Shown here: positions 4,101 through 14,831 of the stretch, in pieces
Layout of the letters: each line of letters begins with the position of its first letter
How positions within the stretch are numbered: the first letter of the stretch is position 1
Source of the DNA: an uncultured Prevotellaceae bacterium
GTDB taxonomy: Bacteria > Bacteroidota > Bacteroidia > Bacteroidales > Bacteroidaceae
Reading direction: 5' to 3'
NCBI GenBank assembly: GCA_947303855.1
Contig: CAMYZO010000004.1
Location: 1 to 64,000 of the forward strand
Length of the DNA stretch: 64,000 bases
Program-made: the position numbers and the translations under genes
Notes under the pieces: model-generated
Database searches by the model: none
What the model was told of the DNA's origin: nothing
The model's input: the letters and a program-made list of their open reading frames with translations, nothing else

Positions 4101-4955
4101 GCCGCCGAAGACCTGCGCACACACCATGCCGACCTGATTGTCTGCAAACACCAAATGCCCGGCATGACGGGTAGCGAACTGTGCAACCACCTGAAGACCA
4201 ATGCCCGCACAGAGCGCATAAAGTTTGTGCTCATGACCGACGAGACCCTGTCGCCTCAGGCCATGAAGAACATGAACATCACGCTCTCTGCCGACGACTA
4301 CCTGGCCAAACCGTTCAACATGCAAGAGGCCATCATGCGTTTCAACAAACTGCTGGGACTGGGGGCTTACACCGTTGACAACCTGATAGAAGGCGCAGAG
4401 ACACGACGCCTGGAAAGCAGGAACACCAGCATGACCACCGCCACAGAGAGCATCGGCATGACCAATACGGGAAAACTCCAACAGGAAACGGCGCAGGACG
4501 ACGAGGAGCTGAACTTGACTGCCCCCCTGCAGACAGGCACGGCAAACCAGCCAATCAGCGAACTGGCGCAGATCATCAACGACGAGAATGATGAGCTGGG
4601 GGCCAACTACACCATGAACGATGCCATGGACCGTCAGCTGCTTCGCAATATCGAACAGTACGTGTTGCAGAACATGAGCCGCGGACAGATAAGTCTTGAA
4701 GAGATGGCCTCTGTCATGGGTATGGGCCGCGTACCTTTCTTCCACAAGATTCGCAACCTTACCGGCAAGACACCGGCAGAGCTTGTACGCGACCTGCGAC
4801 TGAAACATGCCAGCATCCTGCTGAAGCGCACCAATATCAACATGAGCGAGCTGGCCACCAACGTGGGCTTCATCACGGCCGAGAACTTTATCAAGGTCTT
4901 CAAGGAGAAGTTCGGACTGTCGCCTCTGGAATACCGTCTCAAACACCGTCAATGA
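1200..4955 (+). CDS. Hybrid two-component system-like regulator: periplasmic Reg_prop propeller, Y_Y_Y domain, TM helix, degenerate kinase region, receiver-like domain, AraC-type HTH
   Basis: Repeated W(V/I)GT..G(L/V) propeller repeats, TM WYLSWWMLLIYATTIIVALYIW, REC-like VMFFIDDNEEF...MPGMTG...AKPF, and C-terminal HTH_18 (ISLEEMASVMGMGRVPFFHKIRNLTGKTPAELVRDLRLKHA...FGLSPLEYR). No N/G-box HATPase region between TM and REC. Confidence 0.9.
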   Translation: MKKLRILTLLLLALPLAAAAVYLFKTLDARNGLTSSQINCILKDQRGFVWFGTPAGLYRFDGYTFKNFQCDSHDGSSLPDSYINSIQEALDGTLWISTSAGYCIYHPQSESFERDMKQTFARLGIERIPSVIYIDKHKNVWGFIPNKGVVCYNMQQQLLFEFPCTDVAVGIPLGNVCSISECRDGALIVYDDGRIVCCDVMHQQHTVWSTFEIANRGLRHTNTLKAFADQKDNIWLYGQGTLFVYNKSTNTWNTTIGDQFGLTGIGVDNTVNGMGGDRNGNIWVGTDRAGLIRINVDTYATEVAETKNMSTGQTNTEPMRVQSLYVDDTDLLWVGTEKSGVAYYGKNIYRFHSSPIGDVTAIAEDANGRLWYGTSNHGVVGYDGPLASKKVSAMQYTKDGSLWVGSKQNGLTRIKNGEATIYSAARDNKSTLIDDHINALCTDRVGNLWIATNGGLQLFNHKMGTFSTYTRQNGKLPTNGITALFCTKDNKLLVGTGEGLIILNIATTETTHLTGNTTNMKKFTNNYITQVFEDSRGLIWVGTREGANILNPETDDLSYITEKQGLSNNNICGITEDKRHNIWLTTTDGITRAVIQRNPNDNSIGYGLYKYDMSDGLLSNEFNQGAILAQAGGDVLFGAIYGINRTRHDIADNTETLPRVMLTQFFVGEEEIQIGHAYDGNVLLTQALNETSHIELDNGQNTFTIKFSAGNYNQSERLQFMYWMEGLDQDWRNGDAIKHGVTFTNLSSGKYTLHVKAVSADSAVSNQERTLEIVIRNPWYLSWWMLLIYATTIIVALYIWKIGINQVREIKRKKQAVINELKMQREEIKAASDDLRQPMARMTSIIGNLAEKESTLEEREQLNALHSQMLQVITRVSDMQTALEHPEEKAKQSVHGRYEMNAKGELALPETGTEELSSEIVPQRRHADSPTSHLVMFFIDDNEEFLRFAKASLYNVYDFHAYNNTRKAAEDLRTHHADLIVCKHQMPGMTGSELCNHLKTNARTERIKFVLMTDETLSPQAMKNMNITLSADDYLAKPFNMQEAIMRFNKLLGLGAYTVDNLIEGAETRRLESRNTSMTTATESIGMTNTGKLQQETAQDDEELNLTAPLQTGTANQPISELAQIINDENDELGANYTMNDAMDRQLLRNIEQYVLQNMSRGQISLEEMASVMGMGRVPFFHKIRNLTGKTPAELVRDLRLKHASILLKRTNINMSELATNVGFITAENFIKVFKEKFGLSPLEYRLKHRQ

Positions 4956-6202
4956 TGCGATTACTGCTCCTGTTGATTTCACTCCTGCTGCTGCAAAGCA
5001 GTCAGGCACAGACCAGCGACCAGGTATTCCGTCAACAGATGGAGGCATACGGCTGGCAGTTTTCCGAGGGTAATGATGTCCACCTGCTGATGAGCGGACA
5101 GCAGAAGTTCGACGATATGTTCCAGGCCATCAGGCAGGCCAGGAAAAGCATCCATCTGGAGTACTTCAACTTCCGCAACGACTCCATAGCCTTTCTGCTC
5201 TTCGACCTGCTCCGCGAGAAACGCCGCGAGGGCGTTGAGGTAAGGGCACTCTTCGACGGCTTCGGCAACGACTCCAACAACCAGCCGCTGAAACGGCACC
5301 ATCTGGAAGACCTGCGCCGCGACGGCATCGACATTCACGAGTTCGACCCCATCCGCTTTCCCTGGGTGAACCGCATCTGGCCCCGCGACCACCGGAAAAT
5401 CGTGGTCATCGACGGCAGCATAGCCTATACCGGCGGCATGAACGTGGCCGACTACTACATCAAGGGCACCGAGCAGGTAGGCTCCTGGCGCGACATGCAC
5501 TGCCGCATAGAGGGACCTGCCGTCCACCACCTGCAGCACATCTTCTGCCGCATCTGGCAGGAGACGACCGGCGAGAACATTCTCACTAACAGGAACTACT
5601 ACCGGGCCCGTCAGGCAGGTAACAAGACCATTGCCATCGTCAACCGCGAGCCTGGCGCAGCCTATACCACAGACGGCTACACCGTAGGCCGCAACAACGC
5701 CATGCGCCAGCTGTATGTCGCTGCCCTTGATGCGGCCCGCGACTCCGTGAAACTCATCAATCCCTATTTCACGCTCGTCCCGTCAGTCAAGCGTGCGCTG
5801 AAGCGCGCCATCAAGCGTGGCGTCCGTGTTGAAATCATGGTGTCGGCAAAAAGCGATATTCCCCTCACCCCCGACTGCGTGCTGCGCAACGCTTACAAGA
5901 TGCAGAAGCTGGGGGCTCACGTCTGGCTCTACCTGCCCGGCTTCCACCACTCCAAAATCATGATGGTCGACGGCAGCTACTGCACCGTGGGCTCTGCCAA
6001 TCTCGATGCCCGCAGCATGCGCTTCGACTACGAGGAGAATGCCGTCATCATTGACAAGGCCACCACACAGCAGCTCGACGACATGTTCAACCGCGACAAA
6101 CTTGAGAGCGTCGTCCTGAACCGTGACACATGGAACGAGTACCGTACGACGTGGCAGAAGTTCCGCGGCTGGTTTGCCTCGCTGCTACGTCCCTGGCTGT
6201 AA
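4952..6202 (+). CDS. cls: Cardiolipin synthase / phospholipase D family
   Basis: Two HKD motifs (DHRKIVVIDGSIAYTGGMN and HHSKIMMVDGSYCTVGSANLD); ATGA overlap with the upstream regulator. Confidence 0.9.
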   Translation: MMRLLLLLISLLLLQSSQAQTSDQVFRQQMEAYGWQFSEGNDVHLLMSGQQKFDDMFQAIRQARKSIHLEYFNFRNDSIAFLLFDLLREKRREGVEVRALFDGFGNDSNNQPLKRHHLEDLRRDGIDIHEFDPIRFPWVNRIWPRDHRKIVVIDGSIAYTGGMNVADYYIKGTEQVGSWRDMHCRIEGPAVHHLQHIFCRIWQETTGENILTNRNYYRARQAGNKTIAIVNREPGAAYTTDGYTVGRNNAMRQLYVAALDAARDSVKLINPYFTLVPSVKRALKRAIKRGVRVEIMVSAKSDIPLTPDCVLRNAYKMQKLGAHVWLYLPGFHHSKIMMVDGSYCTVGSANLDARSMRFDYEENAVIIDKATTQQLDDMFNRDKLESVVLNRDTWNEYRTTWQKFRGWFASLLRPWL

Positions 6203-6204
6203 TA

Positions 6205-8409
6205 TCAGTATTCCAGAAGATCGACCATCAGACGGATTTCCACATCGCTGACGCCGTGGCGGCAGATGAAGTCGTGTTCCGGGCCGAAGAACTCACCCAT
6301 GGCGCTGAAACTGACGCCGGGCTGGGAAGCATAGCGGCGGAACATGCCGGCGGCAGCCGTGATGGAACGCGAAAACCACAGGCAATAGCCGTAGTTCAGC
6401 AGGTCGTCGCTCAGAACGGTGTCTGAGGATAACAAGGCCTGATAGAATTTGGATGCCGCGTCATATTTGGCATCGCCTACCAGCGTCCAGGCCAGCACAC
6501 GCGTGACATTGGCATCGTCAGGCGCTTCATAGTTCAGACGGTAAAGCAGTTTCAAGGCTTCACCATATTCATTCAGCTTGGTCAGACAGACAGCCTCGTT
6601 CAGCAGATAGTTCCTGCGGTCAGGATGACGTTCCGTCAGCCGGCGGTAGTATGCAAGGGCTGTCTGGTAGTCACCGCTATCGAACATGGCTCGGGCATAG
6701 CCAGCCCAGCCCCGCTCATTCTGAGGGTCCAGCTCCAGCAGACGGGCGTAGCTGCCGGCAACGGTAAGCCCGGCATTCTGCTCTGTATGCGTCCGCGACA
6801 GCACCGTACCGTTGAGCAGGTAGAACTGTGCATCGCGCACCTCCTCACGATAATTCTGCAGCGTCATCATGGCGGCATGATAGGCATGGTTCTTCAAGAG
6901 GAAAGCACTCACCTCGCCCAGTTTCTCCTCGGCACGTGTCTGCTGCAGCAGGCTGTTGGCAAAAAACAGGTAGCGGGGATGGGCCGCTGTGGTGTCGAAG
7001 GGATTGACGAACTCGCTCCGCTGAGGATAGACACGGAAGAAGCGGTAGAGGTTCTGCAGATAGCTACGGCGCAAGAAGGCCGGCGTCTGCAGTTCGGAAG
7101 TGTCGATTTCACTGCCCACCAGCACGGCCTCGCCACGGTCCATCATCTCCAGCAGACTCTCCGGTATACGGCTGACGGCTGCCTGGTAGCCCAACAGGAA
7201 CGAATACTTGTCGCTGTCGCAGAAAGGACCGGTCTTGAGCAGCGAGAGCAGGAACTTACGGCCACGCACACCGTCGGTAATGCCCTCTACGGCAGGGTGC
7301 TCCAGATAGAAGGGTACAAACCAGTTAGCCACAGTCTGAAAGAACGGGAAACGCTTCATCTGCGAGAAGCCGCCGAAGTAGATGTCTGACCCCTGCCGCT
7401 GCATGTCGGCCATACGTTTCATGCTGGCTTCCAGCTTCTCCATACGCTGTTCGGAGAGTTCCGGGTGCAGCACATCTTCCATGGTGTCGTCGTCAACCTC
7501 CTCAATACCATTGCGAGTCACACGTAAGTTGCCTGACTTCATCAGCTCCGGCATAATCTCGCTCTGAATGATTCTATTGTCGTTCTCGGCTTGCAGGCAG
7601 TAGAACACCTGCATCTGAAGTTCAGCCAGCTCGTTCAGACAGAGGTCATCGCTGAGGACATCGCGCACCATGTCGTTCATCTCAGGATAAAGACGGGCCA
7701 CATCGGCATTCAAACAGAAGGCCCAGCCCACCAGCGCACGCTGACGCACTCGCTCATCGGCAGACTGCCGGTAAACATTTATCAGCAGGCGGAACTTGTT
7801 GATTCCAAAGTAATTAAGAAGCGACAAGGTGATAGCGCTGACCATAAGCTGCTGGTCGGCGCTGTCGATGGTAGGCGTAAGCAGCATCTCCTCGAAAGCA
7901 TCTGTCACCCCGTCGGTCCACAGGCGCGATGTCCAGATATAGTCAAAGAGAGCTTCCATCATCTGCTGGTGCTGGGCATAGATGACTTGCCGGTGCTGGC
8001 GCCGCGTATGCTCTGGCTCCAACTCCAGCAGTGCCACGTCAGAGACATAGTCTACCAGGTCGCGCCTGAGGGCTGCCGCCGACCACTCCTTCCGCGACAG
8101 GCGGGCACGGCTATGGATGCCTGTCAGAAAGGCACTCTGGCGGATGCTATAGCGTATGCCGATATTCATCGTAAGCACATACATACGGCGCAGCAACTGG
8201 TCGTACAGCTTCTGACGCTGATCATCGTCGTAGCCTTGCTGCCAGTAACTGCTCATCAGCTGGTAGTCGGTCTTGATGGCATTCAGCTGTTCTGAGGCCT
8301 GCGGCTGTACAAAGGTGAACAAATAACTCTCCAGATGGGCTATCGACGAACCCAGCTGTCGGTCTATGACAGACTTGACAATGGTACTCAATGCTTCGTT
8401 TATCACCAT
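6205..8409 (-). CDS. Tetratricopeptide repeat protein
   Basis: Single long ORF with C-terminal TPR-like repeats (LLELDPQNERGWAGYARAMFDSGDYQTALAYYRRL...). Confidence 0.75.
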   Translation of the reverse strand: MVINEALSTIVKSVIDRQLGSSIAHLESYLFTFVQPQASEQLNAIKTDYQLMSSYWQQGYDDDQRQKLYDQLLRRMYVLTMNIGIRYSIRQSAFLTGIHSRARLSRKEWSAAALRRDLVDYVSDVALLELEPEHTRRQHRQVIYAQHQQMMEALFDYIWTSRLWTDGVTDAFEEMLLTPTIDSADQQLMVSAITLSLLNYFGINKFRLLINVYRQSADERVRQRALVGWAFCLNADVARLYPEMNDMVRDVLSDDLCLNELAELQMQVFYCLQAENDNRIIQSEIMPELMKSGNLRVTRNGIEEVDDDTMEDVLHPELSEQRMEKLEASMKRMADMQRQGSDIYFGGFSQMKRFPFFQTVANWFVPFYLEHPAVEGITDGVRGRKFLLSLLKTGPFCDSDKYSFLLGYQAAVSRIPESLLEMMDRGEAVLVGSEIDTSELQTPAFLRRSYLQNLYRFFRVYPQRSEFVNPFDTTAAHPRYLFFANSLLQQTRAEEKLGEVSAFLLKNHAYHAAMMTLQNYREEVRDAQFYLLNGTVLSRTHTEQNAGLTVAGSYARLLELDPQNERGWAGYARAMFDSGDYQTALAYYRRLTERHPDRRNYLLNEAVCLTKLNEYGEALKLLYRLNYEAPDDANVTRVLAWTLVGDAKYDAASKFYQALLSSDTVLSDDLLNYGYCLWFSRSITAAAGMFRRYASQPGVSFSAMGEFFGPEHDFICRHGVSDVEIRLMVDLLEY

Positions 8410-9545: not shown

Positions 9546-10985
9546 ATGCTAATAGGTCGAGACAACGAAAAAAGAACCCTTCAGGATGCTCTCACGGATG
9601 AGTATTCACAGTTTATAGCAGTCTATGGACGTCGCCGTGTAGGCAAGACATTCTTAATAAGAGAGTCATACGACTATCACTTCACGTTCCAGTTTACGGG
9701 AGCTGCCAAGACTACAGCCAGAAAACAACTGGCCCGATTCCGTATGGCTCTGAAAGAACATGGGTTGCAGGATATGCCGAGCGTGTTCAGCAATTGGATT
9801 GTTGCCTTTTCTGAGTTGAGACGTTATATATCGCTTCAGCCAGAAGGTAAGAAGGTGATATTCCTTGACGAACTGCCCTGGATGGACGCACCCCGTTCGG
9901 GCTTCCTTTCTGAACTGGAATCGTTTTGGAATGGCTGGGCCTCGGCCAGAAAGGACATTGTCTTTGTGGTCTGCGGCAGTGCCACGTCGTGGATGGTCAA
10001 GAAGATTATCAAGAACAAAGGCGGGTTGCATAACCGGCTTACCCATCGGATAGCTCTCAAGCCCTTCTCTCTTCGGTTATGCGAAGAGCTGATGCAAGCG
10101 CGTGGCATCGAGATGACACGCAAGCAGATACTGAATGGCTACATGGTGTTTGGAGGAGTACCTTACTACTGGAGCTTGTTGCAGAAAGGTGCAAGTCTTA
10201 CGCAGGAGATCGACCGGCTTATCTTCTCGAAAGATGGAGATATGTACGACGAGTTCAGCATGCTCTATGCGTCGCTTTTTAAGAAACCGGAGCCATACAT
10301 TAAGGTAATCAGACTTTTGGCTGATAAGAAAGAGGGAATGACCAGGCTGGAACTGATTGAAAAAGGAAAACTGGAAGATAACGGAGCCTTGACAGACATC
10401 TTGAACGACTTGGAATGGTGTGGTTTTATCCGTGGCTACTCCGCGATAGGCAAACAGGTGAAAGACGAAATCTTCCAACTCATCGACCACTATACGCTGT
10501 TCTATTACGAATACATCAACGGCATACACCATGGCAAGAACTTCTGGCAGGCCACGGAAGGAACACCGCGATACTACAATTGGTGTGGCCGTGCCTTTGA
10601 GCGCGTCTGTCTCTGGCATACAGACCAGATCAAGCACAAACTTGGCATCAGCGGAATTCTGACCGAAGAATACGCTTGGCGGTATAGTCCGAAGAAAAAG
10701 CAAGACAACAATGAGTTGACGAAGGAGAAGGGTAAACAAGTTGATCTGCTGATAGACCGCAGCGATGGTATTATAGACTTGTGCGAGATGAAATACCATG
10801 AAGGTAAGTTTGCCATCTCAGAGTTGTACCAGAAGGACTTAAATGACAGAAAAGATGTCTTTAGGCAGGTAACAAAAACGCAGAAAAGTGTCCATACTGT
10901 GATGGTGACCACTGACGGTCTTCTGAACAACGCCTACACAAAAGACATACAGAACGAGGTCTGTCTGAACGATTTATTCTATTGA
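9546..10985 (+). CDS. AAA/STAND-like ATPase with C-terminal DUF234 (PD-(D/E)XK-like) domain
   Basis: Walker A YGRRRVGKTFLI, Walker B VIFLDELPWMD, sensor FVVCGSATSWM; C-terminal QVDLLIDRSDGIIDLCEMKYHEG (D..ExK) pattern of DUF234 ATPases. Confidence 0.88.
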   Translation: MLIGRDNEKRTLQDALTDEYSQFIAVYGRRRVGKTFLIRESYDYHFTFQFTGAAKTTARKQLARFRMALKEHGLQDMPSVFSNWIVAFSELRRYISLQPEGKKVIFLDELPWMDAPRSGFLSELESFWNGWASARKDIVFVVCGSATSWMVKKIIKNKGGLHNRLTHRIALKPFSLRLCEELMQARGIEMTRKQILNGYMVFGGVPYYWSLLQKGASLTQEIDRLIFSKDGDMYDEFSMLYASLFKKPEPYIKVIRLLADKKEGMTRLELIEKGKLEDNGALTDILNDLEWCGFIRGYSAIGKQVKDEIFQLIDHYTLFYYEYINGIHHGKNFWQATEGTPRYYNWCGRAFERVCLWHTDQIKHKLGISGILTEEYAWRYSPKKKQDNNELTKEKGKQVDLLIDRSDGIIDLCEMKYHEGKFAISELYQKDLNDRKDVFRQVTKTQKSVHTVMVTTDGLLNNAYTKDIQNEVCLNDLFY

Positions 10986-11059: not shown

Positions 11060-11390
11060 AAGAGCAAAAACATATTCCAGACCGAAGGTTGTTACGCCGC
11101 AACCTCAAACGTTTTAGCGACGAACGGGACTAATCCATTTTTTTCAAGATAATTTCACTTTCGTATTTCTCATCTAATCTATTTGACATGGAAATGAAAT
11201 AGGTATTATAGAATGACGGGCGCTAGGCATCATAAACAAATAAACTCATCAATAAGGGCGTGGCAGATAGGCATTGCCGCAGCAACAAACATCTGACTGA
11301 TGAGTTGATTATAGAATTATAAAGATATTCTGATCTGCAACTTTTTCATCTTTTTTTTGTGCAAATCGTTGGAATTTGAGTTTTTTTTCA

Positions 11391-11398
11391 TAAATTTG
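11391..11398 (+). promoter_or_regulatory. Bacteroidetes -7 promoter element TAAATTTG
   Basis: Matches TAnnTTTG; TTG about 19 nt upstream. Confidence 0.55.
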
Positions 11399-11432
11399 CA
11401 CCGTGTTCTCATAAGAGGCACAACATAATTTG

Positions 11433-11608
11433 CTCAAATTCCAGCTCGAATCACCACCTCGGACAGCGAATAACGAGCAAAATACAAAACGTATTTGGAG
11501 TACGCACTTTGAGTGCGTCTTCTCCATAACGTTTTGGGGCTTGTGGTGAGCCTGAGCTGGATATGGCAGGAGCGCACTCTTTTCATATCCAGAAGTTAGT
11601 GCTAACTT
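11433..11608 (+). ncRNA. Putative structured 5' leader (nested and competing hairpins)
   Basis: Stems AAAACGT/ACGTTTT, TGGAG/CTCCA, ACGCACT/AGTGCGT nested inside ATTCCAGCTCGAATCACCAC / GTGGTGAGCCTGAGCTGGATAT; then CTGGATATG/CATATCCAG and AAGTTAG/CTAACTT. Confidence 0.6.
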
Positions 11609-11648
11609 GTTGAAAGGGATATTAGTATTAACTTATAAACATACAATT

Positions 11649-12569
11649 ATGAGCAAACAAAAAAACACAAACCTCTTAGGGTTAGCCATTATCATGTTAG
11701 TTTTCACTTCATGTACGGCACCCCAGTATTTATCAAAGCCAATCGTTCACTATCCTGGTATCAAAAACACAGGTACTTATGGTATCCAAAACATGGACGA
11801 GAAAGGGAAAACACAAAGCACGTTCTGTCACTATGACGGCTTTGACGTGCAATACTTCGTTGATGGGGACTTCAGACCTTATTTCGTTATTACAAACAAC
11901 ACAAACAAAAGTCTAATCATTGACAAATCAAAAAGTTATGTACTGTATAACGGATATGCGACACAGTTATTCAAAGATGTTCGCTCTTCAAGGAGCACAA
12001 CATTCAATAATGTACAAGACGCGATTAATAATGTTCAAACAAATGAGGCTGGTGTTTCAATGACAGTGCCACCATATTCCAAATGGGAACTTCCCCTCCA
12101 AGAAACGAATGTAAGGAAAATGACGATTCCTGCTTTTAATAGGACACCAGGCACTCACACTTTAACATCGTTTGACAATCCTGAGAATGTAGAATTTGTA
12201 CTACCTTATTCTTTCGATTATTCAATGGCAAATTGGGACACAAGTAGAAATCGATTATTTGTGAAAGAGTTGGAGGTAGAAACATTTGAGAAAACGAAGC
12301 CTTTTAGATCAGAGGGACCATCCTCATACGGTATCTTTTATTCAACAACTCGAAAAAATGGTGAGCCAGACTGGTCTAAAACAAAAAGAGTAAACTCTAT
12401 CAATTTAGAACGATACAGAAAACACAAGAGAGCCGTAGATATAAGTCATGGAATATGGGGAACAATATTCTTACCCGTTTTTTTAACTGGATATTTTATT
12501 TACCTTCGAGGATGTGACCATGAACCTCCTGTGTATGATACTGCATGGTGGGATAAAACATACGAGTGA
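11649..12569 (+). CDS. Hypothetical lipoprotein
   Basis: ORF given as 11607; the likely start is internal ATG MSKQKNTNLLGLAIIMLVFTSC with lipobox; C-terminal TM segment GIWGTIFLPVFLTGYFIYL. Confidence 0.65.
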   Translation: MSKQKNTNLLGLAIIMLVFTSCTAPQYLSKPIVHYPGIKNTGTYGIQNMDEKGKTQSTFCHYDGFDVQYFVDGDFRPYFVITNNTNKSLIIDKSKSYVLYNGYATQLFKDVRSSRSTTFNNVQDAINNVQTNEAGVSMTVPPYSKWELPLQETNVRKMTIPAFNRTPGTHTLTSFDNPENVEFVLPYSFDYSMANWDTSRNRLFVKELEVETFEKTKPFRSEGPSSYGIFYSTTRKNGEPDWSKTKRVNSINLERYRKHKRAVDISHGIWGTIFLPVFLTGYFIYLRGCDHEPPVYDTAWWDKTYE

Positions 12570-13835: not shown

Positions 13836-14831
13836 ATGGAAGAAAACAACAAAATTCTTATTTATACGGACGGTAACGGGCTGACGAAAATAGACGTAAA
13901 GCTTGAAGATAACACGCTGTGGCTCACACAAGCCCAGATGTGCGAGCTGTATCAAACGAGCAAATCGAATGTAAGTGAACACATCAAGCACATATTTGAA
14001 GAAGGCGAATTGCAGGAAGATGCAGTTGTTCGGAAATTCCGAACAACTGCATCAGACGGCAAACTATACCTGACAACTTTTTATAATTTGGACATGATTA
14101 TTGCCTTGGGGTACCGTGTGCGCTCCATCATTGCGACACGGTTCAGGCAATGGGCTACGGAACGACTCAAAGAATATATTGTCAAAGGATTTACACTCGA
14201 CGATGAACGGCTTAAGAAACTTGGCGGTGGCGGTTACTGGAAAGAACTACTTGAACGCATCCGAGACATCCGAGCCACAGAGAAGGTCCTCTATCGGCAA
14301 GTGCTGGAAATTTACGCCACAAGTATCGACTATGACCCACGAGCATCTGTATCTCAGGAGTTTTTCAAGAAAGTACAGAACAAGATTCATTATGCCATCC
14401 ATGGACGCACAGCTGCAGAGTTGATAGTGGAACGTGCAGATGCAGAAAAAGACTTCATGGGGCTTCTCACGTTCAAAGGTAATCAGCCCACATTGGTTGA
14501 AGCTAAAACAGCGAAGAACTACCTGGATGCCAAAGAACTCCGTGCTATGGGGCAACTGGTTTCGGGATATTTGGACTTTGCAGAACGACAGGCAGAACGC
14601 GAACAGCCGATGACAATGAACGACTGGGCCAACTATTTAGACCGCATTCTTACAATGTCTGGCGAACAACTGTTGCAAGGTGCCGGCAGCGTATCGCATG
14701 CCGAAGCAATGGAACACGCGACAAGCGAATATCGCAAATACAAACAACGCACCATCAGCGATGTAGAACAGGACTATCTGGATGCTATCAAACGACTGGG
14801 CAACATAGGAAAGGAAGAAGACGCAAAGTAA
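13836..14831 (+). CDS. RhuM family (virulence RhuM) protein
   Basis: LTQAQMCELYQTSKSNVSEHIKHIFEEGELQEDAVVRKFRTTASDGKLYLTTFYNLDMIIALGYRVRS..ATRFRQWATERLKEYIVKGF motifs; TATATTTG upstream. Confidence 0.92.
   Translation: MEENNKILIYTDGNGLTKIDVKLEDNTLWLTQAQMCELYQTSKSNVSEHIKHIFEEGELQEDAVVRKFRTTASDGKLYLTTFYNLDMIIALGYRVRSIIATRFRQWATERLKEYIVKGFTLDDERLKKLGGGGYWKELLERIRDIRATEKVLYRQVLEIYATSIDYDPRASVSQEFFKKVQNKIHYAIHGRTAAELIVERADAEKDFMGLLTFKGNQPTLVEAKTAKNYLDAKELRAMGQLVSGYLDFAERQAEREQPMTMNDWANYLDRILTMSGEQLLQGAGSVSHAEAMEHATSEYRKYKQRTISDVEQDYLDAIKRLGNIGKEEDAK
14019..14053. repeat. 35-bp perfect palindrome inside rhuM
   Basis: GATGCAGTTGTTCGGAA-A-TTCCGAACAACTGCATC, 17-bp arms. Confidence 0.97.

Follow-up and report, generated by a model that had tools for sequence, protein, structure and literature searches.

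Positions 11403–11583 of the window (the whole 64,000-nt stretch of DNA analysed here, from an uncultured Prevotellaceae bacterium; all window features described are on its plus strand) are a structured 5′ leader, with a promoter on one side and an orphan lipoprotein gene on the other, and comparison with its homologues indicates that it probably represents an uncatalogued family of cis-acting leader RNAs working as transcription attenuators. Sequence statistics bear out the folds, their covariation and mutual exclusion, the arrangement of promoter and ORF, and the spread of the family. This agrees with the proposal, made in an earlier note on the same DNA, of a switch-like cis-regulatory RNA outside the known classes: there is no Rfam match, homologues number in the hundreds, both competing folds are compensated, and the order promoter, RNA, ORF is fixed. 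The tests named in that note, an Rfam scan and a look for compensatory changes in the stems of homologues, returned no match to a known class and stems that do carry such changes.

Family spread and genomic setting

At the DNA level, 48 of the 200 species searched in the genus had matches, diverged full-length copies among them, and RNAalifold on 25 aligned homologues found two-sided compensation at 17/22 pairs. The covariance model built from 25 homologues (R1, subclass 1) matches 193/399 genomes of the genus, in up to 9 copies each. It also finds two sites in the genome of the window itself, and matches 25/294 genomes of the order, where the hits fall into a strong tier (93–126 bits) and a weak tier (35–47 bits). 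The weak tier is a distinct, divergent second subclass, and the model made from it (R2, subclass 2) matches 142/200 genomes of the genus (up to 12 copies per genome), 83/338 of the class, and 26/247 of the phylum, five of the last outside the class; copy numbers are lower bounds, because the search filters lose weak matches, and E-values are rough. A search of Rfam 15, at both gathering and relaxed thresholds, gave nothing for the element in the window, and neither subclass matched in the homologues scanned; sub-threshold matches (bxd_4, snoRNAs and the like) were dismissed as chance, and no description of the element was found in the main texts of the open-access literature searched. Among the structured RNAs of the phylum, the models of Bacteroidales-1 RNA (RF01693), Bacteroides-1 (RF01694), and Flavo-1 (RF01705) (PMC2864571) do not match the element in any scanned locus; one Flavo-1 match in locus L127 lies away from it.

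The other subclass-1 copy in this genome (L064:3877–4041, contig C24) scores 104 bits, against 125 in the window, and differs in most strand sequences of the stems P3, P4, and P5 described below. The inverted repeats, and the presence of several copies in one genome, could point to a structured DNA or mobile element (a recombination site, retron- or IS-like), and the earlier note had kept a mobile or free-standing element as its alternative. Such an origin is highly improbable: the copies are diverged and carry compensatory changes, the own-genome pair being far from near-identical dispersed copies, and the arrangement of promoter and next ORF is fixed, orientation included. No match to the element was obtained by blastn in phage and plasmid collections, and a retron or DGR RNA was discarded, with no reverse transcriptase (RVT_1) above cut-off in the own genome (82% complete).

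No ORF follows the L064 copy at the usual spacing, and this copy may have lost its gene; on the opposite strand, at 4528–6647, this locus carries a transposase-like ORF (resembling the IS91 type) and a tyrosine recombinase. Three weak subclass-2-like copies in the same genome (G000:C22:12325–12559, C81:16196–16387, and C73:2651–2828; 46–53 bits) are provisional, and a signal-peptide ORF stands behind the first of them.

The Bacteroidota-type promoter of the leader is recognizable in the sequence at 11368–11398 (TTG at 11368–11370, N20, and the −7 box TAAATTTG at 11391–11398, as previously claimed), and transcription would start just 3′ of this box. In subclass 1, the TAnnTTTG −7 motif occurs within 110 nt upstream in 72/79 homologues (7 expected), mostly 36–50 nt from the RNA core, and 65/76 are followed on the same strand, at no more than 120 nt, by the start of an ORF of 60 codons or longer (mirrored control 7/77); for subclass 2, the promoter motif is found in 31/44 (2.9 expected) and a downstream ORF start in 36/42 (control 4/40). 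These counts place the RNA between a promoter and a gene, the position of an attenuator, and across the sequences compared the spacing of promoter, RNA, and start codon is constant. The DNA inverted repeat TGGAATTTGAG/CTCAAATTCCA reported to flank the −7 box does occur in the sequence, but looks like chance, since cognate homologues pair no better than swapped ones (−5.45 vs −5.51 kcal/mol); not being conserved, it was rejected as a functional feature bracketing the promoter.

The lipoprotein gene behind the leader (11649–12569, ATG at 11649; 306 aa) encodes a protein with no match in a Pfam search, and its sole full-length homologue among 300 species of the genus (53% identity, locus L072) is also preceded by the leader. 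Blastn aligns parts of both genes at 75% and nothing in the leader DNA; the homologue thus keeps the leader though only the genes align, and the structure outlives the sequence. The neighbours of the locus are an AAA ATPase of the ATPase_2 family (9546–10985) and a RhuM-family protein (13836–14831).

Fold of the leader and its competing pairings

Folding of 11398–11640 gives −82 kcal/mol (z = −5.7), and 0/200 dinucleotide shuffles are as good. The main fold (P2, P3, P4, and P5) is 97.1% paired in the 79 subclass-1 members, with two-sided changes at 33/39 pairs, against 32–45% in slid controls. An unguided scan of the 79 sequences for co-varying helices recovers P2, P3a, P3b, P4, P5b, P6, and P8, plus a few other short helices that carry little weight, and cognate-versus-swapped duplex energies over 66 combinations put P3, P4, P5, and P6+P8 at the top, with P2 above its controls; shuffles ignore relatedness, for which slid controls and swap tests correct in part. 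The stems named in the earlier note are all in the sequence, at most 1–2 nt from where they had been placed. Its outer arms are the strands of the outer stem P3 (P3a and P3b 5′ strands at 11440–11457, P3b and P3a 3′ strands at 11543–11561; 16 pairs, 15 with two-sided compensation); its AAAACGT/ACGTTTT stem is P4, the base of the central hairpin (CAAAACGT 11485–11492 / ACGTTTTG 11529–11536; 9/9 alignment pairs compensated, 96.4% paired); and its two inner stems make up P5 (11496–11526), as P5a (TGGAG 11496–11500 / CTCCA 11522–11526) and P5b (ACGCACT 11502–11508 / AGTGCGT 11512–11518).

The 5′ end of the leader folds as the hairpin P1 (11403–11421; cognate halves −8.6 vs swapped −5.6 kcal/mol), followed by P2, in which TTGCTC (11430–11435, segment 1) pairs with GAGCAA (11475–11480) in 97.7% of cells, with T-A, A-T, and G-C at one pair. 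P2 crosses P3, and is therefore either a pseudoknot or an alternative pairing; an HDV-like ribozyme topology was considered because of this crossing, but no hairpin of the P3 type lies consistently between the strands of P3b and P2, and no Rfam family matches, so the idea was set aside. In both subclasses the P3b 3′ strand lies within a small hairpin GGY...RCC, in the window the loop of the candidate hairpin K2 (GGCT 11538–11541 / AGCC 11549–11552), which also appears in the subclass-2 helix scan; in subclass 2 the P3b 5′ strand is likewise in a hairpin (GAAAA...TTTTC), and a putative hairpin in the window, K1 (CGA 11447–11449 / TCG 11459–11461), overlaps the P3a and P3b 5′ strands. This suggests two hairpins, K1 and K2, whose loops may kiss.

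The alternative to P5, the candidate antiterminator, is P6+P8, the candidate terminator, formed by the strand 11512–11528 with the 3′ arm 11562–11578. The GAGTGCGtC/GcGCACTC pairing pointed out previously is its end, AGTGCG (11512–11517) facing CGCACT (11573–11578), although the conserved version is longer. P6+P8 played no part in the alignment model, and yields 94.7% paired, with 12/14 pairs compensated and slid controls at 21–54%; 0/500 shuffles reach this level, relatedness being ignored in them. It is in the MFE structure of the isolated segment in 79/79 homologues, and in the swap test P5 and P6+P8 each pair better as cognate than as swapped strands. P5 and P6+P8 are mutually exclusive, because both use the strand 11512–11528, as the 3′ arm of the former and the 5′ arm of the latter; two exclusive helices with a shared strand, both conserved, are what is expected of an attenuator. 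The other expected feature, a helix followed by a U-rich tract, is also found, with a mean of 5.9 U in the eight alignment columns after P6, the window's own tract directly 3′ of P6 (UCUUUU, 11578–11583) being weak and short. A simple terminator scan gave no match, because the loops allowed were 3–8 nt and the loop here is of ~33 nt.

Downstream of the candidate terminator, the hairpin P9 (CTGGATATG 11557–11565 / CATATCCAG 11584–11592; cognate −11.9 vs swapped −10.5 kcal/mol) competes with P3a and P8, and had been proposed as the competing fold; the hairpin exists, but P9 is only moderately conserved, and the conserved competitor is the pairing that captures the 3′ arm of P5, the apical hairpin (11512–11528 with 11562–11578). 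One or more hairpins, P10, follow between terminator and start codon (11593–11632; GTTAGTGCT 11595–11603 / AGTATTAAC 11624–11632); AAGTTAG/CTAACTT also pair there. Conservation is weaker in P9 and P10; the TTAGTGC motif of P10 is nevertheless found in 23/67 homologues (0.2 expected), with cognate pairing better than swapped, and this hairpin before the start codon could have an effect on translation or stability. The promoter and the terminator-like end would also suit a mainly free-standing small RNA, with P6 as its own terminator and the next gene regulated otherwise. This is a rather improbable reading, considering that a same-strand start codon lies close downstream in 86% of subclass 1, that the window has no TAnnTTTG box between the tract and the ATG, that P9 and P10 link the RNA to the 5′ UTR, and that the several diverged copies of a genome each have their own gene.

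The attenuator logic is most complete in subclass 2, where the main fold has two-sided changes at 33/34 pairs and only adjacent segments prefer their cognate partner (cognate/swapped, in kcal/mol: 1:2, −17.7/−12.4; 2:3, −19.2/−15.8; 3:4, −22.5/−16.9), the non-adjacent 1:3, 2:4, and 1:4 being no different from swapped; judged by these energies, such adjacent-only pairing is the logic of an attenuator. The full 1:2/2:3/3:4 scheme is seen in subclass 2 only, because P2 of subclass 1 does not overlap P4 or P5. In the attenuator proposed here, the outer stem P3 and P4 would be the scaffold that holds the central hairpin. With P5 formed, the polymerase would read through into the gene; when the downstream strand captures the 3′ arm of P5, P6+P8 would form, giving a ~14-bp stem and the U-rich tract, and transcription would stop. 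The 5′ segment (P2, or a ~20-nt strand in subclass 2) could base-pair with the 5′ half of the central hairpin; for subclass 2, this would release the 3′ arm to form the terminator, setting 1:2 and 3:4 against 2:3. The balance would depend on whatever binds segment 1 or stabilizes the P3 junction; we infer that P6+P8 terminates transcription, which way the switch turns, and that some trigger exists, be it a metabolite, a protein, or an RNA. Energies calculated without pseudoknots favor the P5 state in 79/79 homologues (mean −58.6 vs −44.8 kcal/mol, a gap of ~14 kcal/mol), and the stop state would therefore need kinetics or co-transcriptional timing, the pseudoknot (segment 1:2) pairing, or a factor.

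The competition of adjacent segments 1:2, 2:3, and 3:4 is shared with the trp-type amino-acid operon attenuators, represented in the phylum by Bacteroid-trp (RF01692), in which the last pair is likewise a stem followed by a U-rich tract; in contrast to them, this leader has no biosynthetic gene downstream and no Rfam match, and a long P3 bridges both halves. No conserved leader peptide or ORF was seen in several 5′ ends inspected by eye. In transcriptional riboswitches such as ZTP and fluoride, a strand of a pseudoknotted domain is taken over by the downstream terminator strand. Strand takeover from such a domain is common to them and this leader, whereas the switching strand here is the tip of the central hairpin, not the 3′-most aptamer helix, and the gene set is heterogeneous.

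Downstream genes and candidate signals

The majority of the 104 downstream proteins have no shared family, and many are orphans; the families found include BspA-type LRR proteins (7), outer-membrane barrels (4), adenine DNA methylases (3), a C10 peptidase, and a response regulator. By a crude hydrophobicity measure, about three quarters (72/95 loci, an approximate share) seem to carry a signal or membrane segment at the N terminus, and no one pathway accounts for the set. Similar signal peptides with different mature proteins stand behind the leader in L079, L080, L083, L084, L091, and L094, and in a second set formed by L057, L082, L085, and L090, as if leader and signal peptide had been reused together. 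In L140, L142, L145, and L149, subclass-2 leaders end 12–14 nt before ORFs, apparently DNA methylase-like proteins among them, and the tract is followed by GTGG, a CACAAAAA-like sequence, and the ATG.

Two special cases of the attenuator differ in what would set the balance. The P3a/P3b junction has near-invariant bases outside the modelled pairs (AA 11449–11450, CUC 11458–11460, G 11539, and CC 11551–11552), so that a conserved folded core with invariant nucleotides, as in a riboswitch, is found, and by its sequence the junction is a candidate binding site. An orphan riboswitch in which this aptamer-like junction binds a small molecule, with P5/P6 as the expression platform, is a doubtful though possible form of the switch, consistent with the covariation of the platform and with multiple copies per genome in front of different genes. 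In most metabolite riboswitches, however, the downstream genes share a pathway, and here they do not, although those of second-messenger riboswitches can differ; a second way to read the conserved bases of the junction is as the short stems K1 and K2. Alternatively, an RNA-binding protein, a NusG-like antiterminator, or an sRNA on the 5′ segment might hold the read-through state, a suggestion to be taken with similar reserve: the P5 state leaves segment 1 free, the other state pairs it with segment 2, and the targets are varied accessory genes. Processive antitermination leaders of the UpxY/LoaP type sit ahead of surface-related genes, as does this leader, for which no connection with capsule operons or with a neighbouring NusG-like gene was seen.

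Beyond the attenuator itself, a broader reading may be ventured, with less confidence, in which the leaders are a phylum-wide uncatalogued class of riboswitch or factor-dependent attenuator, one common signal controls a changing repertoire of accessory genes for surface and defence functions, and each copy keeps its own base-paired scaffold around a common switching core. The two-state fold is explicit enough for testing by point mutations. If the reading is true, these leaders, present in about half of the sampled species of the genus as subclass 1 and in 70% as subclass 2, with up to a dozen copies per genome, would rank among the more frequent cis-regulatory RNAs of a phylum dominant in the gut, and they are not in Rfam. 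Their targets are for the most part secreted or surface orphans, proteins with BspA-type repeats, and some DNA methylases; to find the trigger would be to expose a signal shared by genes for which protein homology gives no explanation.
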